DNA of 64,000 nt from Arthrobacter terrae (GTDB taxonomy: Bacteria; Actinomycetota; Actinomycetes; Actinomycetales; Micrococcaceae): assembly GCF_015708085.1 (NCBI RefSeq), contig NZ_JADNYM010000011.1:1-64000 (forward strand), given 5' to 3'. Positions 35,782 to 64,000 of this stretch are shown here, one piece after another. The translations under genes were made by a program, and so were the position numbers. The notes under the pieces are model-generated. The model was given only the letters and a program-made list of their open reading frames with translations, ran no database searches and was not told the DNA's origin. The first letter of the stretch is position 1. Each line of letters opens with the position of its first letter.

Positions 35782-36240
35782 CTACCCGGCAGCGGGGAAT
35801 CGCGTGGTTTGCCTCACTTGCCGGGCCAGCTTTGCTGATCCGAAGCCCGAGAAATCCGATGCTCCCGGTGCTCCCCAAATGACCACGAGTTTCAGCGGCC
35901 CGGTTCCGGTGTTGCGCAGGTCATGGTGGGCCCCCACTTTGGCCAGTATTGAGTCCCCGACCGAGATGTCAAATGTCTCACCGCTGACCTCCATCTGTCC
36001 GGTTCCTTCGGTGACAATGTAGATTTCTTCGAGCGCCATGTCGTTGTCCGTGTGGGCGTGCATTCCTTCGCAGCCGCCGGGCGGGAGTTCCCAGGTTTGG
36101 ACAGCAACCCGCAGTTCCGACTGGTCGAAGAAATGCCACTGCATCCGGACGGGAGAGCCGCCGTGCAGCCGGTAGTTAAACGCATGTTCGCCGGAATGTT
36201 CAATCATTTGGTGTTCCTGGCCTTTCGATTGTGCCGGCAT
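35782..36240 (-). CDS. Cupin domain protein of the creatine cluster
   Basis: A 152-aa product from the ATG complementary to 36238-36240, chosen because AGGAGGACAAG precedes it. The double-stranded beta-helix carries the metal motif MHAHTDNDMALEEIYIVTEGTGQMEV and a second motif VGAHHDLRNTGTGPLKLVVIWG. It is the last gene of the minus-strand run transporter-creatinase-IclR-cupin and lies 26 bp after the IclR gene. Its role is unknown; a small-molecule sensor, isomerase or oxygenase in the pathway is possible. Confidence 0.88.
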   Translation of the reverse strand: MPAQSKGQEHQMIEHSGEHAFNYRLHGGSPVRMQWHFFDQSELRVAVQTWELPPGGCEGMHAHTDNDMALEEIYIVTEGTGQMEVSGETFDISVGDSILAKVGAHHDLRNTGTGPLKLVVIWGAPGASDFSGFGSAKLARQVRQTTRFPAAG

Positions 36241-36266
36241 CTTGTCCTCCTGACGGTTGGGGATAC

Positions 36267-37070
36267 TCAACCGCGGCGAACGACGCCGCCGAGCCGGGTG
36301 GTGATTTTAGCCGCGGCATCGGTGCAGGCGTCGGCGAGGATCTGCAGTGTGTCGATCGAGACGCGGAACCTCGGTGCGGGTATCAGCACCGCTGCGACGA
36401 CATTCCCGCGATGATCAAAAACCGGGGCGGCCACACTGGCTTCGTCCAGTGACGTTTCCCCGTAATTTGTGGCGTAGCCCCGCGCGGACGTCTCCTTTAG
36501 CCGGATCAGGTAGGCCTCCAGGGCCTCGTCATCCATTCCCGGGAAGGCGATAGTGCCGCTGGTGAGCAGACTGCGCGCTCGTTCAACGGGTTCGTGCGCC
36601 AAAAAGACCTGAATCGATGAGCTGAAAGAATCATGGTAACGGGTGCCAAGTGGGGTGGTGTGTTTGACTTGATGGTGGCTGGCAATTTGCTCCACACACA
36701 TGGATTCATTGTTATCCCAAACCATCAGCGCACTGGTTTCACCGGTTCGTTCGGTCAATTCCTGCAGCACTGGATAGGCGACACGTCGCTCCTCCAGGTC
36801 TGCCAACAAGGGGCCCGCGACCGCGATCAGGCCCAGTCCCAGGGTGTAGCGTCGCGTTTCCGGATCCTGCCGGACCAGGTTTTCAGCTTCAAAAGTGGCC
36901 ATGATGCGTGAGACCGTGCTTTTGTGCATGCCGACCCGGGAGGCGATTTCCGTGACGCCCAGCAGCGGTTCTTCGGTCGAAAAGCATCGCAGTACCGCAA
37001 TTGCGTTGACAATGACGGAGCTTCCACGGCCTTCGCCGTCGGCCGAATCCCGGACTGCGGTAGTGGTCAT
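36267..37070 (-). CDS. IclR family transcriptional regulator (creatine cluster)
   Basis: A 267-aa protein from the ATG complementary to 37068-37070 behind AAAGGGGAAG. The N-terminal winged helix is VIVNAIAVLRCFSTEEPLLGVTEIASRVGMHKSTVSRIMATFEAEN-like. The C-terminal effector domain includes ALMVWDNNESMCVEQIASHH, FSSSIQVFLAH, ARGYATNYGETSLDEASVAAPVFDHRGNVVAA and ILADACTDAAAKI. It sits between creatinase and the cupin gene on the same strand and probably controls this operon, perhaps via the TTGCAA repeats upstream of the transporter. Confidence 0.92.
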   Translation of the reverse strand: MTTTAVRDSADGEGRGSSVIVNAIAVLRCFSTEEPLLGVTEIASRVGMHKSTVSRIMATFEAENLVRQDPETRRYTLGLGLIAVAGPLLADLEERRVAYPVLQELTERTGETSALMVWDNNESMCVEQIASHHQVKHTTPLGTRYHDSFSSSIQVFLAHEPVERARSLLTSGTIAFPGMDDEALEAYLIRLKETSARGYATNYGETSLDEASVAAPVFDHRGNVVAAVLIPAPRFRVSIDTLQILADACTDAAAKITTRLGGVVRRG

Positions 37071-37149
37071 TACTTCCCCTTTGAGTTTGTCGTCCGAATG
37101 CGGCGTCACGAAAACGTGGCGCCGCATTCACGAGACGGTACTTGCTGCG

Positions 37150-37200
37150 CTGCCGTCCGGACCGGCCTGCCGTCCGGACCGGCCTGCCGTCCGGACAGGC
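37150..37200. repeat. Three 17-bp tandem units between creatinase and the IclR gene
   Basis: CTGCCGTCCGGACCGGC is repeated head to tail at 37150-37166, 37167-37183 and 37184-37200; the third copy has one change (A for C). Each unit contains the palindrome GTCCGGAC. The array lies between the end of creatinase and the start of the IclR gene. Confidence 0.95.
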
Positions 37201-37219
37201 CTGAGCCCTGTGTTATGTC

Positions 37220-38476
37220 TTAGGCTCCCACAATGTTGTGCTCGGGGCCGAACGGGAATTTGGTGATATTCTCCGCGCCATCGGTGCCAACCACCAGAAT
37301 GTCGTGCTCACGGTAACCACCGGCGCCTGCCTGGCCGTCCAGCACGGTGATCATCGGTTCCATCGAAACCACCATGCCCGGTTCCAGCACGGTATCGATG
37401 TCTTCACGCAGTTCCAGCCCCGCTTCGCGTCCGTAGTAGTGGCTCAGAACGCCGAAGGAGTGCCCGTAGCCGAAGGTCCGGTTAGCGAGCAGGCCGCGGT
37501 CCACGTAAATCTCGTTGAGTTCAGCGGCAATGTCCTTGCAGACGGCGCCGGGCTTGATCAGTTCCAGTCCGCGCTTGTGGACCTCGACGTTGACGTTCCA
37601 CAGTTCCAAAGACCGTGCATCGGGCTCGCCCAGGAACAGGGTCCGTTCCAGTGCGGTGTAGTAGCCGCTGGTCATCGGGAAGCAGTTCAGGGACAGGATG
37701 TCGTGCTCCTGGAGCTTGCGCGTTGTGGCCCAGTTGTGGGCACCGTCGGTGTTGATGCCGGACTGGAACCAGACCCAGGTGTCGCGGATCTCGGAGTTAG
37801 GGAACGTGCGGGCAATTTCGTGCACCATGGCTTCGGTGCCGATCAGGGCGACCTCGTACTCGGTGATGCCGACCTTGATGGCGTTGCGGATCGCTTCTCC
37901 GCCCAGGTCACCGATGCGGGCGCCGTGCTTAATGACGGCAATTTCTTCCGCGGACTTGATCATGCGCTGGCGCATGGCGGCCTGTGCCACGTCCACCAGG
38001 GTGGCGCCGCTGAACGCGGCCTGGATCTTATTGCGGTTATCCAGTGGCAGGGAGTCGTCCTCGACGCCGAGCCGGCGGACGTTGATGCCACGGGTGCGCA
38101 GGGCCTCTTGGATCGCAAAAATGTAATTGTCCCGGCGCCAGTCCGTGTACACCACGTTGTCGCCGTAACCGCGTCGCCACGGCATGCCGGCGTCGATGTT
38201 CGCCGTAACGGTGACGGTGTCGTCCGCGGTGACCACCATGGCGTAGGAGCGGCCAAAGTAGGTGAAGAGGAAGTCCGAGTAGTACTTGATGCTGTGGTAA
38301 CTGGTCAGTACGACGGCGTCGAGCTCCTTGGCCGCCATGATTTCCCGCAATCCACCGAGACGGCGTTCAAACTCTGCATCGGAGAAAGTGAGCTGAACCT
38401 TTTCGCCGTTGTGCAGGACTTTGAGGCGTTCCAGCTCGGATACGGAGCTGGCGTTTTCGGGAATGGTGATGCTCAT
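37220..38476 (-). CDS. Creatinase (creatine amidinohydrolase)
   Basis: The 418-aa product, from an ATG behind AAGGAGACACC, hydrolyses creatine to sarcosine and urea. It has the pita-bread (M24) fold but reads as creatinase throughout: TSYHSIKYYSDFLFTYFGR, GMPWRRGYGDNVVYTDW, MIKSAEEIAVIKHGARI, WFQSGINTDGAHN with the catalytic His near residue 247, TALERTLFLG, FGYGHSFGVLSHYYGRE, DTVLEPGMVVSMEPMI and ENITKFPFGPEHNI. These blocks match the Pseudomonas enzyme as I remember it, including active-site Glu positions. It follows the MHS transporter by 63 bp and precedes the IclR gene. Confidence 0.96.
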   Translation of the reverse strand: MSITIPENASSVSELERLKVLHNGEKVQLTFSDAEFERRLGGLREIMAAKELDAVVLTSYHSIKYYSDFLFTYFGRSYAMVVTADDTVTVTANIDAGMPWRRGYGDNVVYTDWRRDNYIFAIQEALRTRGINVRRLGVEDDSLPLDNRNKIQAAFSGATLVDVAQAAMRQRMIKSAEEIAVIKHGARIGDLGGEAIRNAIKVGITEYEVALIGTEAMVHEIARTFPNSEIRDTWVWFQSGINTDGAHNWATTRKLQEHDILSLNCFPMTSGYYTALERTLFLGEPDARSLELWNVNVEVHKRGLELIKPGAVCKDIAAELNEIYVDRGLLANRTFGYGHSFGVLSHYYGREAGLELREDIDTVLEPGMVVSMEPMITVLDGQAGAGGYREHDILVVGTDGAENITKFPFGPEHNIVGA

Positions 38477-38539
38477 GGTGTCTCCTTGTTGATGTTGCAT
38501 TGGTAAATTGAGGGGAAAGTCTGGGATGGGCCTGGGCCG

Positions 38540-39943
38540 TTAGTGCATCAACGGCGCCTTCGAGGTCTCCTTGGCAAGCGACACGGCGATCAGGGATACG
38601 ACGGCGGCCGCCATCAGGTACCAGCCCGGTGCCAGGTTGGAGCCGCTGAGCTTGATGAGCAGTGTGGAGGCGAACAGTGCGGTGCCGCCAAAGAGTGCGT
38701 TAGTGAGGTTGAAACTTACAGCGAATCCGCTGTAGCGGATCTTTGTCGGGAACAGTTCGGCCAGGAAGCTGGGCAGCGTTCCGTCATTGAGGGTCAGCAT
38801 CGCGCCCAGCAGGATCTGGACCAGGATGATGATCAGGAAGTTTCCGGTGCTCAAGAGCAGGAACATCGGAACGGTCAGCACCACGAAGAGGATCGATGCG
38901 GTGATCAGGACCCGTTTCCGGCCAAACCGGTCCGAGGCCAGGCCGGTCAGGAAGATGAAGCCAATGTAGGTGACCAGGGCGACCGTGGTGGCCAGGAACG
39001 ACTCGGAGGAATCCAGGCCGACTACCTCACTGAGGTAAGTGGGCATGTAGCTGAGAACCACATAGAATCCGACCGCGTTCAGAACCACTGCACCGACGGC
39101 GATCAGAAGCGGACGCCAGTGCTTGCGGAACAGGTCCGTGACGGGGGCCTTGATCGCCTCGTCTTCCTTTTCCAGGGCCAGGAATGCCGGGGTGTCCTCG
39201 AGCTTGACACGGATGTAGCGGCCGATCAGACCCATCGGGGCGGCAAGCAGGAACGGAAGGCGCCAGCCCCAGGAGTTCATTTGGTCCGGGGACAGGGAAA
39301 CGGAAAGCAGCAATGCGATCAGGGAGCCAAGCAGCAGGCCGGTGGCCGTGCTGGCGGGCACCACGGCTGCGTATAGTCCGCGCCGGTTCGCCGGGGCGTA
39401 CTCCACCAGGAATGCCGAGGCGCCGGCGTATTCACCGGCGGCCGAGAACCCCTGGACAACGCGCACGAGCAGCAGCAGGATCGGTGCCCAGATACCAATG
39501 ATGTTGTAATCAGGGATCAGCGCAATCGCGAAGGTCGCCGCGGACATGATCAAAATCGATAAGGACAAGGCGTTCTTGCGCCCCACCCGGTCACCGATGT
39601 GCCCCCAGATGAACCCCCCGATGGGGCGGACAAAGAAGGAGATGGCAAACAAGCCGAACGTCAGCAGCAGTGCGGTCTGCTTGTCCGTCTCCGGAAAGAA
39701 CGCATGCGCTATGGTGACGGCCAGGTATCCGTAGACGGCGTAGTCGAACCATTCGACGAAGTTGCCGATGAAACTGGCGCCAATGACCCGGCGCAGAGTT
39801 TTCTTGGAAACGCCGGTTCCGTCATTGGGGTTTTGCTGGCCGCTGAGGGTCGTCGTTCGGGGGGACGGCGAAGCGGGCCCGGCATAGGGCTCGGTGCCCG
39901 GCAAACCGGCGGGCAAAGCTACTGGGGGTGTTTCATTCGTCAT
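38540..39943 (-). CDS. MFS transporter of the metabolite:H+ symporter (ProP-like) family
   Basis: A 467-aa, 12-helix protein from the ATG complementary to 39941-39943. Family blocks are GASFIGNFVEWFDYAVYGYLA, FVRPIGGFIWGHIGDRVGRKNAL, RVVQGFSAAGEYAGASAFLVEYAP, GWRLPFLLAAPMGLIGRYIR and LASDRFGRKRVL. The closest functional relatives carry proline, betaine or organic acids with protons. Because it directly precedes creatinase in the same direction, uptake of creatine (or sarcosine/betaine) is the likely job, by context only. About 55 N-terminal residues are polar and poorly conserved. Confidence 0.9.
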   Translation of the reverse strand: MTNETPPVALPAGLPGTEPYAGPASPSPRTTTLSGQQNPNDGTGVSKKTLRRVIGASFIGNFVEWFDYAVYGYLAVTIAHAFFPETDKQTALLLTFGLFAISFFVRPIGGFIWGHIGDRVGRKNALSLSILIMSAATFAIALIPDYNIIGIWAPILLLLVRVVQGFSAAGEYAGASAFLVEYAPANRRGLYAAVVPASTATGLLLGSLIALLLSVSLSPDQMNSWGWRLPFLLAAPMGLIGRYIRVKLEDTPAFLALEKEDEAIKAPVTDLFRKHWRPLLIAVGAVVLNAVGFYVVLSYMPTYLSEVVGLDSSESFLATTVALVTYIGFIFLTGLASDRFGRKRVLITASILFVVLTVPMFLLLSTGNFLIIILVQILLGAMLTLNDGTLPSFLAELFPTKIRYSGFAVSFNLTNALFGGTALFASTLLIKLSGSNLAPGWYLMAAAVVSLIAVSLAKETSKAPLMH

Positions 39944-39967
39944 AAGAATCCACCAAAGGGTTTGGGG

Positions 39968-39993
39968 TTGCAAGCGTTGCAACGTCGTTGCAT
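39968..39993. promoter_or_regulatory. TTGCAA repeat cluster upstream of the transporter-creatinase operon
   Basis: The self-complementary hexamer TTGCAA occurs at 39968-39973 and 39977-39982, with TTGCAT at 39988-39993, all within 50 bp of the transporter start. The spacing and symmetry suggest an operator, possibly for the IclR regulator of the same operon. Confidence 0.5.
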
Positions 39994-40136
39994 AAGCGTA
40001 CGACGTGATTCGCATCACGGTCAAGGGGTTGCGTGTTTGAGTTTCCCCCAGCCGCGACAACGGCGCCGTAGCCTAGCCCGTTGCGGCACCGTCGTTGCAG
40101 AGCAGTAATTTGCGTCGAGGAAAGCGAATGCCGCCG

Positions 40137-40934
40137 CTAGGCCGGCACACCCGCGGGCTCGCGAACCAGTTCGTTGGCCAGATCCATCACCAAGTCGTCA
40201 ACCACCTGGCCATGGAGCAGTTCACCCTTAGCTGCGCTGGACCCGGCTGCCGAGGACAGGCAGCCGGTGTCCGGCGTGCGGTCCGGCACCACGGGGAGCC
40301 GGTCGAAGCGCGGCAGCACGGCGGCCGGACCGTCGACAACGCGGTCCATGGCTACTCTGCCCGGCTCAAGGTAGAGCATGAGCGAGGTCTCCAGTACCCC
40401 GCCATGCTCGATCTCCCACCCGGGGAAGCCGCCGGGGTAGACCTGGGCCAGCGTGTCCGGGGTGACAAAGTCCCAGTAGGACAGCAGCAACACGCTTGGC
40501 TTCGCGCCCGGCCCGATCCCGAGTTCCTCCAGGGCCAGGTCGATCCCTTCATAGAGGAACTGGTAGTTCTCGAAGTGCCCGTTGACAAAGACCACGTGCC
40601 GGACGCCCTGGTTCAGGAAGGACTTGACCAGATTGCGCGCCACGCCAATGAGCGAGGCGCCGTCCAGGCTGGTGGTGCCGCAAAGGTGGTTGCCGCCGCC
40701 GGACTTCTGCTGTGACTTGTAGCCGTAGGCGATGGGCTGGGCAACAAGCGCCCCCAGCCGGGTGGCCACTGCCTGCGCGAAATGCGTTGACAAGATGGTG
40801 TCCGTTCCCAGCGGCAGGTGCGGCCCGTGCTGCTCCAAGGAACCGACAGGGATGAGGACAATTGCCTCCCCGGACGCCAGAGCCTCGCGATAGGCGAAGG
40901 CGTCCAGGTCTTCCAGAAATACTGATGTGCCCAT
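40137..40934 (-). CDS. Creatininase (creatinine amidohydrolase)
   Basis: A 265-aa enzyme from an ATG behind GAGGAGCACCACC. It opens the creatinine ring to give creatine. The metal ligands known for the Pseudomonas enzyme fall at the same positions: Glu34 and His36 in GSLEQHGPH, Asp45 in GTDT, His120 and Glu122 in NGHFENYQF. Other matching blocks are YGYKSQQKSGGGNH, TTSLDGASL, GIDLALEELG, LSYWDFVT and EHGGVLETSLML. It lies 82 bp downstream of the NCS1 permease on the same strand and 193 bp upstream of the MHS transporter. Confidence 0.96.
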   Translation of the reverse strand: MGTSVFLEDLDAFAYREALASGEAIVLIPVGSLEQHGPHLPLGTDTILSTHFAQAVATRLGALVAQPIAYGYKSQQKSGGGNHLCGTTSLDGASLIGVARNLVKSFLNQGVRHVVFVNGHFENYQFLYEGIDLALEELGIGPGAKPSVLLLSYWDFVTPDTLAQVYPGGFPGWEIEHGGVLETSLMLYLEPGRVAMDRVVDGPAAVLPRFDRLPVVPDRTPDTGCLSSAAGSSAAKGELLHGQVVDDLVMDLANELVREPAGVPA

Positions 40935-41016: not shown

Positions 41017-42549
41017 TCAGACCACGGGTTCCGGGATTTTCTCTGCGCAGGCATCGCCATGCTCTGCCAGCACGGCATCGTCCTGCAGGTCAAGGCGGAT
41101 GCCCAAGGGCACACCGGCCCGGAGGCGCCTGCGGAAGCGAGGGTAGCCGAGCGCAAAATACAGGCCCGCGGAGGTGATGGTGCCAGCCAGCCAGGAAAAA
41201 TCGATTCCGCCCAAGGCCGTGGCGATGGGTCCCTGCAGGGCGGGGATGGCGCCGTACATGCACATCCAGGTCATGACAATCCCGGCGAAGAATGCAATGA
41301 ACGCGACCGGATTGAATGCTTTGAGATGGGTTTTCTCCGGGGGGAGGAACAGATAGCTGAAGTTCTTGTGCCGGCGTTCAAAGACGAAATAGTGCACGGC
41401 CATAATGCCGCCCCACGTGGCAACCCAGGCCACTATCGCGATCAGCCAGGTGTCCAGCAATTCACCGAAGTTGCGGGCAAACATGAAGCCGATTACGGCA
41501 AGCATAGAAAGGGCGCCGACCAGGATGGACAGTTTCTTGCGGGACACCTTGACATCGAGCGCTTGTACCGCGACACCGAAGGTGTACATGTTGATGATGT
41601 TGGTGGCGATCGGACCGTGGATGACGAGCAGGATGACAGGAATGGCAAACGTGCCGAAATTCTCCACGATGAGAGCTCCCGGGTCCGCGCTTCCGTTCTT
41701 GGTGGCAAGGCTGGCGCCGAGAATGCCGAGCCAAACGACCGGCAGGAACTGGCCCAGCACACTGACGGTAAACAGTTTCGCCGGTCGTATTTTCCTGCTC
41801 ACAAACCGCGAATAGTCCGGTGCGTAGGTGAACCAGCCGATTCCCCAGCCGATCCCGATAGCGGTCATCACGCCGGACATCGCGGCAATGCGGGGCATCC
41901 CGGTGAGGACTTCTCCTGCCGGGCCGGCGTAGGACCAATCGATGTTCAGGTGTGTCCAGGCGAGGATGGACATGGCGATGAGGACCACGATCGTGGGCGG
42001 CATGGTCCAGCGCTCAAACTTGGCGATGGCGTGGTAGCCGCGGTAGCAGATAATGACCTGGATGCTCATAATGACGCCGGCTGTGGCGATGCGCCAGCCG
42101 AAATTGGAAGCCGCCGGGTCCACCCAGCCGATCAGCGCGAAGAGGGCCATGACCAAGTCCAGAATGATCCAGGTGTTCACGGCCGCCCATCCGATGGCAA
42201 TCGTGGCTTGGATTGCCGCTGGCAGGTAGGCGCCCCGGCGCCCAAAGGCGCCTCTGGAGAGCAACATCCCGGTGGCACCGGTTTTCTGGCCCAAGATGAC
42301 GAAGAAGCCGAAACCCAGCATACCGATGAGGTTTCCGACAATGAGCACGAAGAGCGTATCGGAAAGGCCGAGCCCCAATTGGATTCCCAGTGCGCCGAGG
42401 ATCCAGTTGATGGGGGCCACATTGGCACCTGCCCAGATCCAGAACTGACCCGAGAGCTTAGTGGTCCGCGCCGATTCCGGCACTGGCTGGAGAATATCTT
42501 CTACTTCCTGGGTGGCGTCTTCAGATTTAGTCGCCGATCTTTGTTTCAC
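41017..42549 (-). CDS. NCS1 family (cytosine/purine-type) permease
   Basis: A 510-aa, 12-helix transporter from a GTG start. NCS1 landmarks are FWIWAGANVAPINWILGALG, GQKTGATGMLLSRGAFGRRGAYLPA, AIGWAAVNTWIILDL, GWGIGWFTYAPDYSRF and HGPIATNIINMYTFG. Characterised relatives carry cytosine, allantoin, hydantoins or thiamine. It precedes creatininase in the same direction, and is divergent from the PucR regulator and deaminase genes. It may import creatinine (a hydantoin-like ring) or cytosine. The substrate is inferred from neighbours only. Confidence 0.9.
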   Translation of the reverse strand: MKQRSATKSEDATQEVEDILQPVPESARTTKLSGQFWIWAGANVAPINWILGALGIQLGLGLSDTLFVLIVGNLIGMLGFGFFVILGQKTGATGMLLSRGAFGRRGAYLPAAIQATIAIGWAAVNTWIILDLVMALFALIGWVDPAASNFGWRIATAGVIMSIQVIICYRGYHAIAKFERWTMPPTIVVLIAMSILAWTHLNIDWSYAGPAGEVLTGMPRIAAMSGVMTAIGIGWGIGWFTYAPDYSRFVSRKIRPAKLFTVSVLGQFLPVVWLGILGASLATKNGSADPGALIVENFGTFAIPVILLVIHGPIATNIINMYTFGVAVQALDVKVSRKKLSILVGALSMLAVIGFMFARNFGELLDTWLIAIVAWVATWGGIMAVHYFVFERRHKNFSYLFLPPEKTHLKAFNPVAFIAFFAGIVMTWMCMYGAIPALQGPIATALGGIDFSWLAGTITSAGLYFALGYPRFRRRLRAGVPLGIRLDLQDDAVLAEHGDACAEKIPEPVV

Positions 42550-42714: not shown

Positions 42715-44220
42715 ATGCTTCCTCTGGCCGAGGTGCTGGACAATGAACTCGTGCGCGCGGGCCGTCCGCGTATCCGCGCGGGCCGGGCGATGATCGCGGT
42801 GAACTCGGTCCGCTGGGTCCATTCAAGTGAGGTGCTGCAAATCGCTCCGCTCCTGCGCGGGGAGGAACTTCTGCTGACGGGAGGGGCAGCTCTCTTAGGA
42901 CTTAAGCCAGCGGCACAGCAGGACTACATCCGCCGACTGGCCGAGCGGCACGTCAGTGCCCTTGTCATCGAAACGGCCGGATTAAGCCGTAAGCTTTCGG
43001 CGGAACTGGTTCAGGCCGCCGAAGACTCATCCCTGCCTCTCATCGAGTTTCAATCAGTCGTCCCGTTCGTGGACGTGGCCGAAGACATTAACCGGCGCAT
43101 CGTCTCCAAGCAGATTGCCGCCCTGCAGACTGCCGACTCCATAGCCCAGCACTTGATGGAAGCGCTGGCCTCCGGCGCCACCTTGTCGACGCTGATGGAC
43201 CTCCTGGCGAAATCGCTGAAGACGCAGGTGGTGCTGATGGATCTGCGCGGAGCCGTGCTGGAAACGGCTGGCGAGGCGATGGAGCAGGCCGAACTCATTG
43301 AGGTGGAAATTTTCATCGGGGGCATCGCGACGGCGAAACTGAGCATCCACCGCCGGGCCAGCAGCGACGCGGCCGTGCTCCGGACCATCGGTGAGAGGCT
43401 CAGCGGAACGCTGGCTCTGGCTCTGTCGCAGCGATACCAGCCGACGCTGTCCCAGGTAGCGGACACCACTTTGATGCGGGCGGTGTTGGATGGCTCCGGG
43501 GCGGCGCAGGTGAAGGAGTTTTGCGCGATAGCCAAATTCCCCACCGACCAGCCCGTACTGATGATGGAGTTCCGGAGGATAGGTCTGGCCAATATCCAGG
43601 GGTCCGCGGAACGGGCGGTGCGTCGGTGCTGCCCCGGTGTGCGGACCTATCAGGAGGGCGGGAACGTCTATGCACTGATCCCGTTGGGAAACGTCGGGAC
43701 CCGGCAGCGACGGTTTAGCATACTGGAGACATTGGAGAAGGAGCTCGCCGAAATTGCCGTCACCGGGGTCATGGGCCCAACGGTCGTCGATGCCACCTTG
43801 GCGCATTGGTCCTTGAGCGAGGCCAAGCTTGCGCATTCCCTGGGTCCGGCGTCCAAGGTCGGCAATAACCTGTGGGACAGCGAAAACTTTGTGGTGGAGC
43901 GGCTGGCCGCCGGTGCACTGCCGGCGTTGGCCGTGGCCCGCCTGACCCAGGAATTGGTCGGCGAACTACTGGAGTACGATAAACGCCGCGGTACCAAGCT
44001 CCTGGAGACACTCGATCAGTGGCTCGTAACCGGTTGTAATACGGCGGAAGCTGCCCGAATACTGTTTTTGGAGCGCCAGTCAATGCACAATCGGTTAACC
44101 AGGATATTCGAGTTACTTGGCGGCGATCCGCGCGGCACGGGCAAGATGGCTGGATTGCATCTGGCCGTCCGGCTAGCCGCAACCCTCCCGCATCACGTGC
44201 ACGCTTCACGACTGCGCTAA
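42715..44220 (+). CDS. PucR family transcriptional regulator
   Basis: A 501-aa protein from an ATG behind GAAGGGAAAC. The N-terminal PucR domain (VLDNELVRAGRPRIRAG, LLRGEELLLTGGAALLG, SALVIETAGLSRKL, LIEFQSVVPFVDVAEDIN) precedes a GGDEF-like/CdaR middle region and a C-terminal helix-turn-helix (LLETLDQWLVTGCNTAEAARIL, QSMHNRLTRIFELLGGDP). PucR proteins sense purine- or pyrimidine-related compounds. Divergent from the NCS1 permease and 57 bp upstream of the deaminase, it probably controls both directions. The 165-bp divergent gap holds a CCCCGCGGGG palindrome and two GTGTCCAT copies. Confidence 0.92.
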   Translation: MLPLAEVLDNELVRAGRPRIRAGRAMIAVNSVRWVHSSEVLQIAPLLRGEELLLTGGAALLGLKPAAQQDYIRRLAERHVSALVIETAGLSRKLSAELVQAAEDSSLPLIEFQSVVPFVDVAEDINRRIVSKQIAALQTADSIAQHLMEALASGATLSTLMDLLAKSLKTQVVLMDLRGAVLETAGEAMEQAELIEVEIFIGGIATAKLSIHRRASSDAAVLRTIGERLSGTLALALSQRYQPTLSQVADTTLMRAVLDGSGAAQVKEFCAIAKFPTDQPVLMMEFRRIGLANIQGSAERAVRRCCPGVRTYQEGGNVYALIPLGNVGTRQRRFSILETLEKELAEIAVTGVMGPTVVDATLAHWSLSEAKLAHSLGPASKVGNNLWDSENFVVERLAAGALPALAVARLTQELVGELLEYDKRRGTKLLETLDQWLVTGCNTAEAARILFLERQSMHNRLTRIFELLGGDPRGTGKMAGLHLAVRLAATLPHHVHASRLR

Positions 44221-44797: not shown

Positions 44798-44816
44798 GTC
44801 CCTTGGATGCAGCGAT

Positions 44817-49119: not shown

Positions 49120-49121
49120 CG

Positions 49122-52600: not shown

Positions 52601-56168
<3,568 letters not shown>

Positions 56169-56592: not shown

Positions 56593-56730
56593 GGGCGAAC
56601 CTCTGTTCCTAAGGAATTCTTTGAGCCATCCGTGCAAACCATCCCTACAGGTCATCTCTGCCAGGGTGGGCCGTTTCGCACTCTGCAACTTAACTCGCAT
56701 TACGGAACATCGTGATTCATCTCACACGGC

Positions 56731-56771: not shown

Positions 56772-56873
56772 TGCATAGTCCAACGCGCATTCTGTTTCAC
56801 ATGGCGACGTTGGTTGCGCAGGACGCAATATCGGCCTTTTCCGGCATTTTCATCCTTTAAGGAGGGACGGCAC

Positions 56874-58139
56874 ATGACCACCATCGCAGTTGTGGGAGCC
56901 TCGCTGGCGGGCATCTCCTCTGCGCGGGCCCTCCGTGCGCAGGGATACCGCGGCCGCCTGGTGATCATCGGCGACGAAGGCAGGCGGCCCTATGATCGGC
57001 CGCCGCTGTCCAAGGACTTTCTCGCCGGGAGGATCACCGCCGCCGACCTGGCGCTGGAATCGGACGATGAAGAGCTGGAGGCCGAATGGCTGCTTGGCGT
57101 CGCGGCAACCGGGCTGGACACGCGGCGACACGTAATCACCTGCAGTGACGGCCGTACAGTCGCCTACGACTCAGCCATTATTGCCACCGGCTCACGGGCA
57201 CGAATACTGCCGGCTGCGGCGGGATTCGGGAACGTCCACACCCTGCGGACCCTTGAGGATGCGCAGCGCCTGAAGGAGCAGCTTGTTCCGGGGTGCCGCC
57301 TCGTGGTGATCGGTGCCGGTTTTGTCGGAGCCGAGGTCGCGGCCACAGCCAGAAGCATCGGCGCGGACGTCACCCTGATTGGCTCGGGGCCGGCCCCGCT
57401 TAGCGGCCCCCTTGGAGCGCGAATGGGTGCCCTGATCGGCGGCCTGCACGAGGTCAACGGCGTCAGGCTCATCAGCGGCACCCGGATCGAATCCCTTGTT
57501 GCGGACGGCGGAAATGGTGGGCACGCCGGAACGGCCAGCGCAGTACGGCTGTCCGACGGGAGCACGGTGCCGGCCGACGTCGTCGTGCTGGGCTTGGGCG
57601 GAATTCCGAATGTTGAATGGCTCGCCGGCTCCGGGCTGGATCTGGCCGACGGCGTCCGGTGCGACTCCGCGGGCCGGACCGGTGCCCTCGGCGTGTCGGC
57701 GGTGGGTGACTGCGCCGCCTGGTTTGACAGCAGATCGGGCAGCTATCAGCGTGCCGAACATTGGACCGGCGCGTTGGAGCGGCCTGGCCGCGCCGTGGCT
57801 GCTCTGCTGGCGGACGCCGCCGCGCCTGCTGGTGCACCGACCGGCGCTGGTACTGGCGCGCTGGAGCTGCCGTACTTCTGGTCCGACCAATACGGCGCGA
57901 GGCTCCAGTTCGCCGGCACCGCGGACGGCGCCGACAGCGTGGAAATTGAAGCAGGTGACCCTGCCGATCACACCTTCCTGGCCGTCTACTACCGCGCCGG
58001 GGAAGCGGTCGCCGTTTTGGGCGTGAATCAGCCCCGGCTGTTCACCAGGTGGCGTAGGTCGCTCAACGGTAGTACCTCGAAGGAATGCGCGCCCGTCCCG
58101 AGGGAAACCGGAGCGACGTCGCTGAGCCCGGCCTGCTGA
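56874..58139 (+). CDS. FAD-dependent ferredoxin reductase (BphA4/HcaD-like)
   Basis: A 421-aa flavoprotein from an ATG behind AAGGAGGGACGG. First FAD motif TTIAVVGASLAGISSARALRAQG, then YDRPPLSKDFLAG, LIIATGS-type SAIIATGSRARILP, NAD-binding VVIGAGFVGAEVAATARSIG, and FAD motif GVSAVGDCAAWF, then LPYFWSDQYGARLQFAG. These are the oxygenase-coupled NADH:ferredoxin reductase features. A GAPTGAGTGA repeat sits near residue 325. It heads the short plus-strand operon with the oxygenase (62-bp gap) and shares a divergent promoter region with the ferredoxin. Confidence 0.93.
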   Translation: MTTIAVVGASLAGISSARALRAQGYRGRLVIIGDEGRRPYDRPPLSKDFLAGRITAADLALESDDEELEAEWLLGVAATGLDTRRHVITCSDGRTVAYDSAIIATGSRARILPAAAGFGNVHTLRTLEDAQRLKEQLVPGCRLVVIGAGFVGAEVAATARSIGADVTLIGSGPAPLSGPLGARMGALIGGLHEVNGVRLISGTRIESLVADGGNGGHAGTASAVRLSDGSTVPADVVVLGLGGIPNVEWLAGSGLDLADGVRCDSAGRTGALGVSAVGDCAAWFDSRSGSYQRAEHWTGALERPGRAVAALLADAAAPAGAPTGAGTGALELPYFWSDQYGARLQFAGTADGADSVEIEAGDPADHTFLAVYYRAGEAVAVLGVNQPRLFTRWRRSLNGSTSKECAPVPRETGATSLSPAC

Positions 58140-58201
58140 ACGTCCGCCCCTGATGCTGCCTGCCCCTGCTGTTGTCCGCCCCGCTGTTGAGGAGTATAAG
58201 A

Positions 58202-59344
58202 ATGACCTCCGAAGTAATTTCTCCGTCCCTGATCCCGACCCTGCCGGGGCACACATATGTCGATGAGGATATTTTCCGTGCTGAACAGGAAGAGATCTTC
58301 GAGAAGATGTGGTTTTGCGCGGTGCTGTCCGCTGACCTGACGAAGCCGGGATCGTACAAAACGGTGCAGGTAGGCCGCGAAAGCGTGCTGATCAACCGCA
58401 CTCGCAAGGGTGAGGTGCGGGCGTTCTTCAACATCTGCCGGCACCGCGGCGTGAAGTTGTGCATGGAGGAAGCCGGTGTTGTCGGCCGGGCCTTCCAATG
58501 CCCGTACCATGCCTGGACGTATGACTTCGAGGGCAAGCTCATTGCCGCGCCGAACCTGACAAAGATGCCGGACATCGACCGGCAGGAATACGGCCTGGTG
58601 AAGATCGCGGTGCGCGAATACATGGGCTATGTCTGGGTTTGCCTGGCGGACGAACCACCATCGTTCGAAGCAGACGTGATCGGCGCCATCGAGGAGCGGC
58701 TGGGTGACCTGCGCGCCATTGAGGGGTACGACATCGCGCATCTTAGCCTTGGCCGGCGCATTAGGTACGATGTGAAAGCCAACTGGAAGCTCATCATCGA
58801 GAACTTCATGGAGTGCTACCACTGCGCCACAATCCACCCGGAGCTCACCGAGGTCCTGCCGGAGTTCGCCGACGGCCTTGCGGCCCAGTTCTTCGTCGGA
58901 CATGGCGCCGAATTCGGCGAAGACATCAAGGGCTTTACCGTGGACGGTTCCGAAGGCCTGGAGCGGATTACCGGGATCGACGACGAGCAGGACCGCCGCT
59001 ACTACGCCATCACGATCAAGCCCACGGTTTTCGTCAATCTGGTGCCGGATCACGTCATCATCCACCGGATGTTCCCGATGGCTGCGGACCACACCATTGT
59101 CGAATGTGATTGGCTTTACCTGCCCAGTGTGGTGGACTCCGGCAAAGATCTCACCGCTTCCGTCGAGCTCTTCGACCGGGTCAACCGGCAGGACTTTGAC
59201 GCCTGCGAGCGCTGCCAACCGTCCATGGGATCACGCATCTACGCCAAGGGCGGCGTTCTGGTGCCCAGCGAGCATCACATTGCGGTCTTCCATGACTGGG
59301 TGACGAGCAGGATCAGCGCCGCCGGTAGCCCAGCTTCTCACTGA
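58202..59344 (+). CDS. Rieske oxygenase alpha subunit, probable glycine betaine demethylase
   Basis: A 380-aa ring-hydroxylating-type oxygenase. The Rieske domain ligands are CRHRGVKLC (CxH) and CPYHAWTYDF (CxxH); the mononuclear iron site is NFMECYHCATIHPEL with HxxxxH. Related proteins (GbcA, stachydrine and carnitine oxygenases) demethylate quaternary amines, and the neighbours (betaine supply on one side, dimethylglycine oxidase on the other) leave exactly the betaine-to-dimethylglycine step open. The substrate is therefore inferred, not shown. The 3' end overlaps the convergent IclR gene by 32 bp. Confidence 0.88.
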   Translation: MTSEVISPSLIPTLPGHTYVDEDIFRAEQEEIFEKMWFCAVLSADLTKPGSYKTVQVGRESVLINRTRKGEVRAFFNICRHRGVKLCMEEAGVVGRAFQCPYHAWTYDFEGKLIAAPNLTKMPDIDRQEYGLVKIAVREYMGYVWVCLADEPPSFEADVIGAIEERLGDLRAIEGYDIAHLSLGRRIRYDVKANWKLIIENFMECYHCATIHPELTEVLPEFADGLAAQFFVGHGAEFGEDIKGFTVDGSEGLERITGIDDEQDRRYYAITIKPTVFVNLVPDHVIIHRMFPMAADHTIVECDWLYLPSVVDSGKDLTASVELFDRVNRQDFDACERCQPSMGSRIYAKGGVLVPSEHHIAVFHDWVTSRISAAGSPASH

Positions 59345-60137
59345 CCTGCTCCCCGGTCTGCTTGAGCTCCTCAAGCAGACCGGGTATTGCTTTGGGGTCG
59401 AACCGAAAGGCCGGCCCGGAGATGCTGATGGCCGCGATCGTAACGCCGCGATGGTCGCGTACCGGTACAGCGACGGCATTGAGCCCTATCTCCAGCTCCG
59501 AATAGGAGGTGGCAAACCCGTTTGCCGCGGCGGCGATGAGCTGCTTTTCCAGTGCTGGACGGGACGTTACCGTACTCTCGGTGAGGGCCGGCTGGCCGGA
59601 TTCCTTCAGGATTTGCCCACGTTCCGCGGTGTCCAGGGACGCCAGCAGGATCTTGCCGCTGGAGGTCGCATGGACCGGTGTCAGGCTGCCCATCCAGTCG
59701 GAGGTGGCCAGTGCGGACGGGCCCATTGCCTGATCGACATTGACGGCAAAATTCGAGCGCAGTACCGCCAGATTCACTGTTTCCTGGAATTTATCAGCCA
59801 GCGCGTGCAGGAAGGGGCGGGCCTCGGCAGCCACGTTCAGACGTCCGGGGATGGAACTGGCCAGGCGCAGGATGCCGAAGCCGAGCTGATATTTGCCGCG
59901 TTCGTGGTCCTGCTGGGCCATGTCCCGGGCATCCAGGGCGCTCAGGAGACGGGAAGCCGTCGATTTGTGGACCCCCATTTCGTCCGCAATTTCACTGACC
60001 CCGGCACCGCCGGTGCGAGCCAGGATCTCCAGTACGGTGATGGCGCGGTCCACAGACTGCACCCCGCCCCGGGAGGAGGAACTTTCCGGATCGGTCAAAC
60101 CTGCGGGTAAGGCATCGGGGGATCTGTCGGCAACCAT
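59313..60137 (-). CDS. IclR family transcriptional regulator (betaine cluster)
   Basis: A 274-aa protein from the ATG complementary to 60135-60137. The DNA-binding domain is VQSVDRAITVLEILARTGGAGVSEIADEMGVHKSTASRLLSAL-like, and the effector domain includes LAVLRSNFAVNVDQAMG, THATSSGKILLA-type VHATSSGKILLAS, FATSYSELEIGLNAVAVPV and AISISGPAFRF. It is convergent with, and overlaps, the oxygenase gene, so it is well placed to regulate the oxygenase and betaine genes through the inverted repeat at 56731-56771. The first 30 residues are disordered. Confidence 0.92.
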   Translation of the reverse strand: MVADRSPDALPAGLTDPESSSSRGGVQSVDRAITVLEILARTGGAGVSEIADEMGVHKSTASRLLSALDARDMAQQDHERGKYQLGFGILRLASSIPGRLNVAAEARPFLHALADKFQETVNLAVLRSNFAVNVDQAMGPSALATSDWMGSLTPVHATSSGKILLASLDTAERGQILKESGQPALTESTVTSRPALEKQLIAAAANGFATSYSELEIGLNAVAVPVRDHRGVTIAAISISGPAFRFDPKAIPGLLEELKQTGEQVSEKLGYRRR

Positions 60138-60345
60138 ACCTTCATGCTCCCAGACTTGCCGGCGGGGATGAGACGCGCCCGGCCTCGGCGAAGCCCCGCC
60201 TGCGCGGCCATGATGGCCGCGCCCGGCACCGGGGCGAGCTGCGGAACGCCGGTTCATTCTGCGTAATGTTCAGACCTTGGTTTTCGCACCCGTACTTCCT
60301 GCGCACAGTTGCGGCCTAACTTTGCGTAGCTTTCACCGCGGAGGC
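60138..60345. other. 208-bp gap with a GC-rich dyad
   Basis: The gap between the IclR and GntR genes (both minus strand) contains GCGGCCATGATGGCCGC, a near-perfect dyad inside a longer GC-rich foldable segment at about 60186-60230. It may end the GntR transcript. No coding frame is supported. Confidence 0.45.
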
Positions 60346-61029
60346 TTAGAGAACGCTGCGGATGGTCTTTTCAAAACTTGTCACGTGCTCCAGCGCCAAT
60401 TCGGCTGCCAAGGTGGCGTCGCCGTCGGCGATTGATTCCAGCAGCCGGATGTGTTCGGTGATGTGGCCGCTGACCGAGGGGACCTTGTCCAGCACCAGGC
60501 ACCAGATCCGGGTGGCCAGATTGTCGTATCGGATCAGGGCATCCTCCAGATGCGGGTTGGCGGCCGCCTTGTAGATCAGCCGATGCACGGTGAGGTCATA
60601 CCGCATCAGCTCGCGCTGGTCCCGCGATTGAGCATCCAAGGTGCCGATGGTGGCTGCCACGGCGAGCAGTTCGGCGCGCAGTGCAGGGGTGGCGCGCAGT
60701 GCGGCGCGGCGGGCAGCGAGCGGCTCGAGCAGCTGCCGGATTTCGGAGACGTCAGCCAGTTCCGTGATATCGACGATGGTCGCAAATGTGCCGCGGCGGG
60801 GGTAGGAGACCACCAGGTGGTCAATTTCAAGTTTCTTCAGCGCCTCACGGACCGGCGTGCGGCCCACCTGCAGTTCGGCGGCCAGTTGCCCGTCATTGAG
60901 CGGCTCACCCGGCCTGATCTCCAGCATGATCAGCTTGTCGCGGATCCTCCGGTAAGCGGACTCCGCCAGGGACAGTTCTTCGGTTTCCGTTTCGGCTTCG
61001 GCGGGCGGCAATTGCGGCAGGGCGTTCAC
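60346..61029 (-). CDS. GntR family regulator with FCD domain
   Basis: A 227-aa protein from a GTG start behind AGGAACC. The winged helix is SAYRRIRDKLIMLEIRPGEPLNDGQLAAELQVGRTPVREALKKLE-like; the C-terminal helical FCD domain contains ISEIRQLLEPLAARRAAL-type text (VSEIRQLLEPLAAR), MRYDLTVHRLIYKAAANPHLEDAL and GHITEHIRLLESIADGD, with Asp/His residues that in this family bind metal and ligand. It is divergent from glyA-soxBD, with a 14-bp palindrome between the two, so it most likely regulates the sarcosine oxidation operon. Confidence 0.93.
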   Translation of the reverse strand: MNALPQLPPAEAETETEELSLAESAYRRIRDKLIMLEIRPGEPLNDGQLAAELQVGRTPVREALKKLEIDHLVVSYPRRGTFATIVDITELADVSEIRQLLEPLAARRAALRATPALRAELLAVAATIGTLDAQSRDQRELMRYDLTVHRLIYKAAANPHLEDALIRYDNLATRIWCLVLDKVPSVSGHITEHIRLLESIADGDATLAAELALEHVTSFEKTIRSVL

Positions 61030-61090: not shown

Positions 61091-61119
61091 TTGACTATTT
61101 GTGAGATTGATCATAGCAT
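61091..61119 (+). promoter_or_regulatory. Probable promoter of the glyA-sox operon
   Basis: TTGACT (61091-61096) and TAGCAT (61114-61119) are spaced by 17 bases about 90 bp before glyA. The palindromic operator candidate starts 10 bases after the -10, covering the expected transcription start. Confidence 0.6.
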
Positions 61120-61128
61120 TCAAACAAC

Positions 61129-61142
61129 ACTGATATATCAGT
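61129..61142. promoter_or_regulatory. 14-bp perfect palindrome, candidate GntR operator
   Basis: ACTGATATATCAGT reads identically on both strands and lies between the divergent GntR/FCD gene and glyA, just downstream of a promoter-like sequence. FCD-type GntR proteins usually bind short AT-centred palindromes of this kind, and the position would block transcription initiation of glyA-sox. Confidence 0.7.
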
Positions 61143-61205
61143 AAACCCGAATCTAACATTTCACTGAACATTTCACCGAATGGCTTTACTTCAAAGGAGA
61201 CACCG

Positions 61206-62537
61206 ATGGCAGACCTGCTCACCGACCCATTGTCCGAAGTCGACGCAGAGGTCGACGAGGCCATTTCCCACGAGCTGCTCCGACAGCAGTCCACTCTGGA
61301 GATGATCGCTTCCGAGAACTTTGCTCCGGCGGCAGTCATGGCCGCGCAAGGATCGGTACTGACGAATAAGTACGCCGAGGGGTATCCCGGAAAGCGCTAC
61401 TACGGCGGCTGTGAGCACGTGGACGTCATCGAACAGCTGGCCATTGACCGGGTCAAGGCCCTCTTTGGTGCCGAAGCCGCCAATGTCCAGCCGCATTCCG
61501 GCGCGCAGGCCAATGCGGCCGCAATGGCCGCGCTGCTGACGCCGGGCGACACCATCATGGGTCTGGATCTGGCCCATGGCGGCCACCTTACGCACGGGAT
61601 GCGGCTCAATTTCTCCGGAAAGCTCTATAACGTGGTTCCCTATCATGTGCGCAAGACGGACCTGTTGGTGGACATGGCAGAGGTGGAGGCGCTGGCGCTC
61701 GAGCACCGTCCGCAGCTGATAGTGGCCGGCTGGTCCGCGTACTCCCGCCAGCTGGATTTTGCCGAATTCCGCCGGATTGCCGATCTGGTAGGTGCCTACC
61801 TGATGGTCGACATGGCCCATTTTGCCGGGCTGGTGGCCGCGGGCCTGCACCCGAATCCGGTACCTTACGCTGACGTAGTCACGACGACGACGCACAAAAC
61901 CCTGGGTGGGCCCCGGGGAGGTGTGATCCTTAGCAAGCAGACCCTGGCCAAGAAGATCAACAGCGCCGTTTTCCCCGGTCAGCAGGGCGGACCGCTGGAG
62001 CACGTAATTGCAGCCAAGGCGGTGGCCTTCAAGCTCGCCGCGGGCGCGGAATTTGCGGACCGCCAGCGGCGTACGCTGGCGGGCGCTGCGATTCTGGCCG
62101 AGCGTTTACTGGCCGACGACGTCGCGGCCGCCGGAATCTCCGTGGTCACCGGTGGCACGGATGTCCATTTGGTCCTGGTGGATCTGCGGCACTCCGAGCT
62201 GGACGGGCAGCAGGGGGAAGACCGTCTGCATCGGATCGGCATCACGGTTAACCGAAACGCCGTCCCCTTCGACCCGCGACCGCCGATGATTTCCTCCGGG
62301 CTGCGGATCGGCACCCCTGCACTGGCAACCCGCGGGTTCGGCGCTGCCGACTTCACCGAGGTGGCGGACATAATCGCCGCAGCGCTGCTCCCCGACTTCG
62401 GGGCCGACGACGAAGCCGCACTGAGCGCCCGCGTGGGTGCACTGGCTGAGAAGTACCCGCTTTACCCCCACCTTCAGAGTGGCGGCGGCTCGTCCGCCGC
62501 CGAATCCACAGCAGATCTGATCGGAGCCGGAGCATGA
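61206..62537 (+). CDS. glyA: Serine hydroxymethyltransferase
   Basis: A 443-aa PLP enzyme from an ATG behind AAAGGAGACACC. Landmarks are [76 protein letters not shown], and [14 protein letters not shown] with the PLP lysine, then [20 protein letters not shown]. It interconverts glycine plus methylene-THF with serine plus THF. Its stop overlaps the soxB start (ATGA), so it is a dedicated copy tied to sarcosine oxidation. A second, housekeeping glyA elsewhere in the genome would be expected. Confidence 0.96.
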
Positions 62538-63754
62538 CAACCGAACATCTCCCCGAACACCCGGACTTCCTCTGGCGCAACCCGGACCCCAAAAAGTCCT
62601 ATGACGCCGTCATCGTCGGCGGCGGCGGCCATGGCCTGGCCACCGCGTACTTTCTGGCCAAAAACCACGGCATGACAAATATCGCCGTGTTGGAAAAGGG
62701 CTGGCTGGCCGGCGGGAACATGGCCCGTAACACCACGATCATCCGGTCGAATTATCTTTGGGATGAAAGTGCCGCCATCTATGAGCACTCGCTGAAGTTG
62801 TGGGAAATTCTGCCGGAGGAGCTGGAGTACGACTTTCTCTTTAGCCAGCGCGGTGTGATGAACCTGGCCCATACCCTCGGTGATGTCCGCGAAAGCATGC
62901 GCCGGGTCGGTGCCAATAAACTCAACGGCGTCGATGCGGAATGGCTGGACCCAAAGCAGGTCAAGGAGCTGTGCCCGATCCTGAACGTCAGCGACAACAT
63001 CCGCTACCCGGTCATGGGGGCCACCTACCAGCCGCGGGCGGGCATCGCCAAGCACGACCACGTGGCCTGGGCCTTTGCGCGCAAATGCGACGAAATGGGT
63101 GTAGACATCATCCAGAACTGCGAAGTCACCGGCTTCCTCAAGGATGGCAATAAGGTTGTCGGTGTTAAGACCAACCGGGGCACGATCAACACCGAAAAGG
63201 TGGGGTTGTGCGCGGCAGGGCACAGCTCGGTACTGGCTGAAATGGCCGGCTTCCGGCTGCCGATCCAATCGCACCCTCTGCAGGCGCTGGTCTCGGAACT
63301 GCACGAGCAGGTACACCCCACGGTGGTCATGTCCAACCATGTCCACGTCTACGTTTCCCAGGCGCATAAAGGGGAACTGGTGATGGGAGCCGGGGTGGAT
63401 TCCTACAACGGGTACGGCCAGCGCGGATCCTTCCACGTGATTGAGGAACAGATGGCTGCCGCCGTCGAACTTTTCCCGATTTTTGCGCGTGCCCACGTAC
63501 TGCGCACCTGGGGCGGCATCGTCGACACCACTCTGGACGCCTCGCCCATAGTCGGGCTTTCCCCGGTGGAGAACATGTACGTGAACTGCGGGTGGGGGAC
63601 CGGCGGATTCAAGGGAACCCCGGCGGCCGGACTGACCTTTGCGCACACCATCGCCACCGGCGCTCCGCATGCTTTGAATAAGCCGTTCTCACTGGAACGT
63701 TTCGAGACCGGCGCCCTGATCGACGAACACGGCGCCGCCGCCGTGGCCCACTAG
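62534..63754 (+). CDS. soxB: Heterotetrameric sarcosine oxidase, beta subunit
   Basis: A 406-aa flavoprotein. [25 protein letters not shown] is the FAD motif, with [27 protein letters not shown] next, which is typical of SoxB. The rest, including [50 protein letters not shown] and [16 protein letters not shown], follows the family. It oxidises sarcosine to glycine and, with the alpha subunit, passes the methyl carbon to THF. It overlaps glyA by 4 bp and precedes soxD by 21 bp. Confidence 0.96.
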
Positions 63755-63775
63755 AGGAAGTAAGGAGCCAGAAGA

Positions 63776-64000
63776 ATGTTGCTGTTTTCATGCCCCAACT
63801 GCGGGCCGCGTGACGAGACCGAGTTCCATTATGGCGGCCAGGCGCACGTGCCCTATCCGAAAGATGCGGATGCGCTGACCGATAAGGAATGGTCTGAGTT
63901 CTTGTTCTACCGTGACAACACCCGCGGCGACTTTGCCGAGCGCTGGGTCCACAGCACCGGCTGCCGGCAATGGTTCAACATGCTGCGGGATACCGTCAGC
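63776..64000 (+). CDS. soxD: Heterotetrameric sarcosine oxidase, delta subunit (cut by right edge)
   Basis: The first 75 codons of a small subunit of about 90-100 aa. It starts MLLFSCPNCGPRDETEFHYGG, with the zinc-binding CPNCG motif, and continues with DKEWSEFLFYRDNTRGDFAERWVH and GCRQWFNMLRDT, all typical of SoxD. The order glyA-soxB-soxD predicts soxA and soxG just beyond the window. The ribosome-binding site is in TAAGGAGCC upstream of the ATG. Confidence 0.95.
   Translation, partial: MLLFSCPNCGPRDETEFHYGGQAHVPYPKDADALTDKEWSEFLFYRDNTRGDFAERWVHSTGCRQWFNMLRDTVS

Follow-up and report, generated by a model that had tools for sequence, protein, structure and literature searches.

Glycine betaine is degraded in Pseudomonas by the GbcAB-DgcAB-SoxBDAG pathway, and in Arthrobacter sp. 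TE1826 the genes of creatinine catabolism are clustered, as Nishiya is said to have described in 1998, with that of a monomeric sarcosine oxidase. A glyA-soxBDAG-sdaA-purU gene order for the conversion of sarcosine to pyruvate has been published for Arthrobacter (PMC3534580, in the excerpts available), and creatine/creatinine clusters containing a heterotetrameric sarcosine oxidase have been drawn, including that of Arthrobacter sp. AQ5-05, with a major facilitator superfamily (MFS) gene beside the creatinase put forward as a creatine transporter (PMC8864220, likewise in excerpt). The stretch analyzed here (the window, 64,000 nucleotides, positions 1 to 64,000 of contig NZ_JADNYM010000011.1 of Arthrobacter terrae) carries at 35782-64000 a cluster whose parts all belong to known families and which is predicted to be catabolic, funnelling creatinine and choline/betaine into sarcosine and from there to pyruvate, a reading to which we assign a probability of roughly 0.87. 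The cluster is made of modules that are set in differing order round the sox operon in relatives, and its creatinine-opening slot holds, in different relatives, either of two unrelated proteins. The initial annotation of the window, made from the letters alone, had claimed that both routes meet at sarcosine; the gene content bears this out, although the join is not peculiar to this strain and its creatinine-sarcosine link was already in print (PMC8864220, in the portions seen).

The creatinine half contains the following genes (window genes were checked by open frames, codon-position GC and family-profile scans):

35782..36270 (-), cupin-domain protein (Pfam Cupin_2, 52 bits)
36267..37127 (-), iclR1, IclR-family regulator (IclR_C and HTH_IclR)
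37220..38500 (-), creatinase (creatine amidinohydrolase), creatine to sarcosine and urea (561.6 bits to 1CHM over 29-424)
38540..40060 (-), MFS metabolite/H+ symporter, start uncertain (TIGR00883, 404.8 bits, under the cut-off of 443)
40137..40934 (-), creatininase, creatinine to creatine (TIGR04448, 313.8 bits, cut-off 235; 257 bits to 1J2T)
41017..42549 (-), NCS1-family permease (Transp_cyt_pur, 148 bits)
42715..44220 (+), PucR-like regulator, divergent from the creatinine genes (PucR and HTH_30)

Both the creatininase and the creatinase named in the initial annotation are thus confirmed by these scores. The creatinase reaches 561.6, 526 and 506 bits with the solved creatinases and 94 with the next M24 enzyme, a prolidase, and the creatininase blocks EQHG..H, NGH.EN, YWDFV and IEHGG, which we take to contain the metal-binding and catalytic residues, line up with 1J2T. 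The MFS symporter is the probable creatine importer and the NCS1 permease, whose partner in relatives is either the creatininase or the second protein described below, the probable creatinine importer. No urease had been seen in the window and urea was expected to be handled elsewhere; indeed, urease alpha is encoded on another contig (C22). The iclR1 gene lies near the creatinase in many of the 79 creatininase loci examined below, and the cupin gene near the creatinase or the IclR gene in several relatives. A SLOG/lysine-decarboxylase-like protein (34567-35742, +) precedes the cupin gene (35782-36270, -), and the two are also found near creatinine genes in several relatives.

The choline/betaine half follows:

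44817..45791 (-), choline/betaine ABC transporter, substrate-binding protein (OpuAC, 127 bits)
45893..47914 (-), choline/betaine ABC transporter, fused double permease (TIGR03416, 374 bits, cut-off 363, two stretches)
47914..49302 (-), choline/betaine ABC transporter, ATPase (TIGR01186, 349.5 bits, cut-off 326.6, match from residue 100), its true start probably near 49120
49122..50645 (-), betaine aldehyde dehydrogenase, BADH (best model TIGR01804, 578.7 bits, under the cut-off of 668.6)
50642..52522 (-), choline dehydrogenase BetA (TIGR01810, 831.5 bits, cut-off 732.1)
52601..55117 (-), N,N-dimethylglycine (DMG) oxidase, DMG to sarcosine and methylene-tetrahydrofolate (methylene-THF) (1355 bits to 1PJ5)
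55197..56168 (-), PurU copy 1, 10-formyl-THF deformylase (TIGR00655, 314 bits, cut-off 286)
56242..56700 (-), Rieske ferredoxin (Pfam Rieske, 58.5 bits, CxH...CxxH motif)
56814..58139 (+), ferredoxin reductase, HcaD/AndAa-like, no fused 2Fe-2S domain found (Pyr_redox_2 and Reductase_C)
58172..59344 (+), Rieske non-haem oxygenase (Rieske and Ring_hydroxyl_A), probably a glycine betaine demethylase working like GbcA
59313..60257 (-), iclR2, IclR-family regulator (IclR_C, 135 bits)

The choline dehydrogenase and the DMG oxidase had been correctly recognized from the start, the latter matching 1PJ5 over its full length with the domains DAO, FAO_M and GCV_T. The BADH gene is likewise present and TIGR01804 is its best model, although its score stays below the equivalog cut-off. 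Two transporters had been named, and both (NCS1 and MFS) are there, but the ProVWX-type ABC system at 44817 to about 49120 had been overlooked. The ferredoxin gene, likewise missing from the initial annotation, lies between purU and the reductase gene on the strand opposite to reductase and oxygenase, and likely forms with them a three-component system.

The sarcosine trunk begins inside the window and continues past its edge:

60346..61029 (-), GntR/FCD regulator, divergent from glyA-sox (FCD and GntR)
61206..62537 (+), GlyA, glycine and methylene-THF to serine (NF000586, 589 bits, cut-off 335)
62534..64000 (+), soxB (62534-63754; 622 bits, cut-off 529) and the start of soxD

Beyond the window, contig C3 continues with soxD, soxA, soxG, sdaA and purU2, to about C3:70083. 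SoxD (123 bits, cut-off 116.5) and SoxA (1249, cut-off 1164) pass their models as SoxB does, SoxG (118.9 bits) stays under its cut-off of 143.95, the order B-D-A-G being intact, and the sda_mono and PurU models are over their cut-offs for sdaA and purU2. The GlyA, PurU and sarcosine oxidase genes of the initial annotation are in place, as are its four regulators (36267-37127, 42715-44220, 59313-60257 and 60346-61029), which suggests that each branch is switched separately. Just past purU2, an agmatinase-family ureohydrolase is followed by a TPP-dependent enzyme (L002:12295-15092, G000 C3:72295-75092), perhaps another route for guanidino compounds.

With the enzyme families, the gene order and their conservation observed, the substrates, fluxes and regulation may be proposed as follows. 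Creatinine would be imported by the NCS1 permease and opened to creatine by the creatininase, and the MFS carrier may bring in creatine directly; creatinase would split it into sarcosine and urea, the latter going to the urease coded elsewhere. In the other branch, choline or betaine would enter through the ABC system, choline being oxidized via betaine aldehyde to betaine by BetA and BADH, betaine demethylated to DMG by the three-component Rieske oxygenase, and DMG converted by its oxidase to sarcosine and methylene-THF. The probable heterotetrameric sarcosine oxidase would then yield glycine, methylene-THF and H2O2, GlyA would join glycine and methylene-THF into serine, SdaA would deaminate serine to pyruvate, and the two PurU copies would drain surplus one-carbon units as formate. 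The cluster would thereby illustrate how a soil actinobacterium channels animal and plant methylated nitrogen compounds through one shared trunk.

Linkage of these modules was surveyed in 395 Micrococcaceae genomes. The creatininase model TIGR04448 (E <= 0.001) finds any match in 132 of them and a match over the cut-off in 102, the first 80 of which were used for the co-location counts. All 80 contain soxB; 63 have it on the creatininase contig, and in 57, representing 15 of 16 genera, the two genes are within 30 kb (in two genomes the distance on the same contig exceeds 45 kb). The DMG oxidase, found in 197 of the 395 genomes, was counted from the matches listed, so that its co-location figures are lower bounds: it occurs in at least 36 of the 80 creatininase genomes, on the same contig in at least 21 and within 30 kb in at least 7, against about 0.5 expected for random placement in 4.4 Mb, a rough estimate. 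The corresponding figures are 26, 17 and 10 for the Rieske oxygenase, and 13, 8 and 7 for choline dehydrogenase; four of these 13 choline dehydrogenase matches (G104, G206, G234 and G038) carry one or two internal stops, perhaps as decaying copies. Among 79 named creatininase loci with flanks of up to 10 kb (from the best 80 of 198 confirmed stretches), creatinase is present in 69, glyA or soxB in 37, and a homologue of the GntR/FCD regulator with at least 48% identity in 42.

In six genomes chosen for being linked (G007, G185, G205, G150, G085 and G224, of genera g6, g7 and g8), a stretch of about 25-40 kb contains the sox trunk, the Rieske/DMG-oxidase branch and the creatinine genes, though not in one fixed order, and only in G185 does it also contain the choline dehydrogenase, BADH and ABC genes. 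In the same-genus genome G056 the locus is collinear with the window throughout. Among the genomes examined that far, the full set including the choline genes is thus restricted to the window, G056 and G185, with the same-genus G098 having all but the creatininase. Creatinine genes near the sox trunk are the rule in the genomes tested, and the added betaine branch is a recurrent minority arrangement. Gene-order comparison had been proposed at the outset as a check of whether the two halves travel together, and it shows the creatinine-sox link to be usual and the betaine branch to recur in at least three other genera, in a minority of genomes.

Several of these counts weigh against a general union of the two halves: the DMG oxidase lies more than 45 kb from the creatininase in 11 of the 21 same-contig genomes (matches listed), 67 of the 80 creatininase genomes have no choline dehydrogenase at the threshold used, and a gene of the choline/betaine half (ABC binding protein, Rieske oxygenase, choline dehydrogenase or DMG oxidase, with a minimum identity of 60-70%) is found in just 8 of the 79 loci. 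The halves are indeed apart in many relatives, and in strain Rue61a, which uses creatine and not creatinine, the numbers of the DMG oxidase (ARUE_c04530) and of the sox cluster (ARUE_c39610-39670) are far apart (PMC3534580, in the excerpts available), as would be expected if the two halves had become neighbours by accident in this lineage only. Such an accident is very improbable, since the betaine branch, the creatinine genes and the sox trunk are joined, in varied order, in three other genera, their co-occurrence within 30 kb exceeds random placement, and the order is collinear in G056 and also in G098, except for the creatininase slot, the cupin/SLOG genes and an insertion before gntR. Chance adjacency in this strain alone, named by the initial annotation as what would speak against it, is therefore contradicted by the linkage in relatives. 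Horizontal acquisition as a genomic island would account for the parts of the set that come and go between same-genus genomes, and for the creatine/sarcosine part of Arthrobacter sp. StoSoilB13 belonging to a replicon of 1.35 Mb that is entered as a plasmid; we nevertheless consider it quite unlikely, because the GC content of the cluster (0.632) is close to that of the rest of the window (0.641), the single tRNA detected in the window is about 9 kb away from the cluster, and neither integrase nor transposase was present among the proteins classified, no search being aimed at either. An island defined by composition or by an edge tRNA was accordingly discarded. Separately, creatinase-like genes were found on 420 PLSDB plasmid records (328 at 60-80% identity), 264 from Klebsiella and 103 from Acinetobacter, the Acinetobacter rows listed being annotated as M24 family metallopeptidase.

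The substrate of the Rieske oxygenase is the point where the choline route might leave the cluster. Its score on the GbcA equivalog NF058607 is 221.4 bits, far from the cut-off of 670, which counts against a betaine demethylase, and its closest PDB sequences are 3vca/4qup together with carnitine monooxygenase; 4qup, entitled monoxygenase/demethylase, is presumably the stachydrine demethylase. An activity on another quaternary amine, such as stachydrine or carnitine, with the choline route ending at betaine, is nonetheless unlikely, given that in 20 of the 21 genomes where the listed matches put the oxygenase and the DMG oxidase on one contig (the exception is G174) the two lie within 13 kb of each other, a proximity that ties the oxygenase to betaine, and that a search of the whole genome with the GbcA model returned no second match. 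The initial annotation was right that a Rieske oxygenase is present, but since the cut-off is missed its "betaine-type" label derives from the genomic context.

The catabolic reading being retained, the creatinine-opening slot deserves separate treatment. Among the five same-genus genomes, creatininase is present in G000 and G056 and absent from G028, G078 and G098. G098 follows the window's order, iclR1-creA-mfs-X-ncs1-pucR-ABC-BADH-CDH-DMGO-purU1-reductase-Rieske-iclR2, where CDH and DMGO stand for choline dehydrogenase and DMG oxidase; the cupin and SLOG genes are missing, and glyA-soxBDAG-sdaA-purU2 begins about 10 kb beyond iclR2. X is the following gene, labelled PDA here (a NodB-fold, polysaccharide deacetylase/PuuE-like protein of relatives):

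L085:9902-10888 (-), PDA, in the creatininase place of G098; NodB-fold, polysaccharide-deacetylase type; also in loci L110-L139, L174 and L186

It has no significant similarity to the creatininase, and a remnant creatininase was rejected, as the G098 slot gave no significant match and the gap is filled by this intact, unrelated frame. The gene probably begins about 20 bases before ncs1 ends, preceded by a GAGGAG, as in a coupled operon, and its product has by eye no obvious signal peptide. The NCS1 permease of G098 is 91% identical to that of the window, so the imported substrate is probably unchanged. PDA reaches 324 bits with 3rxz, 136 with 3qbu (deposited as a peptidoglycan deacetylase, which we take to be HP0310), 82 with 1z7a and 74 with the allantoinase PuuE. 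When 31 orthologues are aligned with 5 outgroup relatives, PDA is seen to keep D44.D46, H119...H123 and H257 (numbering from the first ATG), the D.D and H...H elements being presumably the motif of the metal-binding residues.

Across the 395 genomes, PDA (E <= 1e-40) matches in 78, 53 of them at 62% identity or more, the next at 54% and below. Creatinase (E <= 1e-120) occurs in 177 genomes, of which 97 also have creatininase, 53 have PDA, none has both and 27 have neither (5 of the 102 creatininase genomes have no creatinase match). A creatinase match accompanies PDA in each of the 53 genomes, with a single stop codon that may lie ahead of the true start in five of them (G389, G176, G324, G343 and G352), and none of the 53 has a creatininase over the cut-off, weak matches of 62-84 bits being found in four (G348, G364, G368 and G391). 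Fisher tests that ignore kinship give 2e-21 and 3e-25. Within genus g10, 13 genomes carry creatininase instead of PDA, and in the window's genus there are two with each.

The neighbourhood follows the same pattern. PDA and creatinase are on one contig in 49 of the 53 genomes and within 10 kb in 21, and NCS1 adjoins PDA in all 30 short loci examined of the 53. The order mfs-creA-iclR1-pucR-ncs1-PDA of G392, G295, G324 and G376 (the ncs1 of the latter matching in two pieces, perhaps broken) corresponds to mfs-creA-iclR1-pucR-ncs1-crnA in L012, L013, L015 and L019; G045 and G069 have mfs-ncs1-PDA-creA, many other g10 genomes looked at have a pucR-ncs1-PDA set adjoining purU2 of the sox operon, and StoSoilB13 carries iclR1-creA-mfs-gntR-glyA-soxBDAG-sdaA-purU2-pucR-ncs1-PDA on one replicon, its PDA gene lying at 412330-413190 of NZ_AP024648.1. 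Four of the 27 genomes with neither enzyme, viewed over 20 kb, have creA and mfs and no pucR-ncs1-enzyme set. When 67 NCS1 proteins are placed on a tree (37 have PDA as neighbour and 30 creatininase, four genomes being represented twice), the partner switches at least 5 times; a careful tree of 62, from which duplicates and one long branch had been removed, has 4 switches, each of them required by branches with good support. For the creatinase, a quick tree of 90 rows (69 labelled creatininase, 17 PDA and 4 neither) has at least 7 switches of the creatininase/PDA label, 3 of them forced by well-supported branches.

PDA thus shows the gene slot, the partner permease and the exclusion pattern of creatininase, and we lean, at somewhat better than even odds, towards its being a second, non-homologous creatininase of NodB fold, swapped with the classical enzyme at least 4 times beside the same kind of permease. 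A number of observations weigh on the other side. The line at 62% identity was set after seeing the gap (62%, then 54%, 50% and 43%), 48 of the 53 PDA genomes belong to the single genus g10, and in 28 genomes 12-60 kb separate PDA from the creatinase, which in 4 others is on a different contig. PDA relatives at 35-54% identity also occur in creatininase genomes (e.g., G273, G185 and G150), and N-methylhydantoin, hydantoin or allantoin may be the substrate instead. To our knowledge, no chemistry has been described for PDA, nor has any strain that carries it been reported in a growth test. The one of these relatives whose surroundings were viewed, of 54% identity in G273 (L155), lies beside a very distant NCS1-like permease (22%) outside a creatinine context, perhaps acting on another cyclic amide; from this context and from the relatives in creatininase genomes it follows that the fold by itself predicts nothing. 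An order-level search of 169 genomes gave 9 matches, 4 of them in the family, and the other 5 (55-58%) had no matches to the NCS1 and creatinase queries in their flanks (L161-L170), which confines the slot-filling clade to the family in this sample. Against a place of PDA in the N-methylhydantoin route, neither creatinine deaminase nor carbamoylsarcosine amidase was found in 7 flanking frames from the PDA loci L140, L145 and L151, no genome-wide search having been made. In the literature searched, chiefly titles and abstract openings with subscription papers mostly outside, neither a creatininase analogue nor a polysaccharide deacetylase tied to creatinine was reported.

PuuE itself has been described as an analogue of allantoinase recruited from polysaccharide deacetylases, and as metal-independent (PMC3084791 and PMC10967932, citing Ramazzina 2008, in excerpt). 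PDA was rejected as a PuuE allantoinase, its score on TIGR03212 being 74.1 bits against a cut-off of 424.6. If PDA does open creatinine, the polysaccharide deacetylases would have supplied, after PuuE, a further recruit to cyclic-amide hydrolysis; creatinine catabolism would be under-annotated (in 53 of the 395 genomes surveyed), and creatinine assays could draw on a second enzyme fold. The slot swap offers a precise and cheap test of enzyme function.

Compared with the known systems, the window resembles the Pseudomonas pathway in its sequence of steps (betaine to DMG, sarcosine and glycine) and in using a Rieske oxygenase, an enzyme that oxidizes DMG and, probably, a tetrameric sarcosine oxidase, and differs from it in an oxygenase under the GbcA cut-off, a separate ferredoxin, an HcaD-like reductase and an Arthrobacter-type DMG oxidase. 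Unlike strain TE1826, with its reportedly monomeric sarcosine oxidase, it has a probable heterotetrameric enzyme and a betaine branch. The order of its trunk is the same as in the Arthrobacter glyA-soxBDAG-sdaA-purU cluster (PMC3534580, in excerpt, citing Meskys 2001 and Suzuki 2005), to which the window adds the creatinine and choline/betaine genes on one side. Strain AQ5-05 (locus L066) has, as the window probably does, creatinine catabolism linked to a tetrameric sarcosine oxidase, whereas no choline/betaine gene lies within its 10 kb flanks. Finally, PDA, in its predicted role, would be like PuuE a NodB-fold analogue of an unrelated cyclic-amide hydrolase, but it differs from PuuE in falling far short of that model, in having the D.D/H...H motif as in the metal-binding members and in being located in creatine loci.

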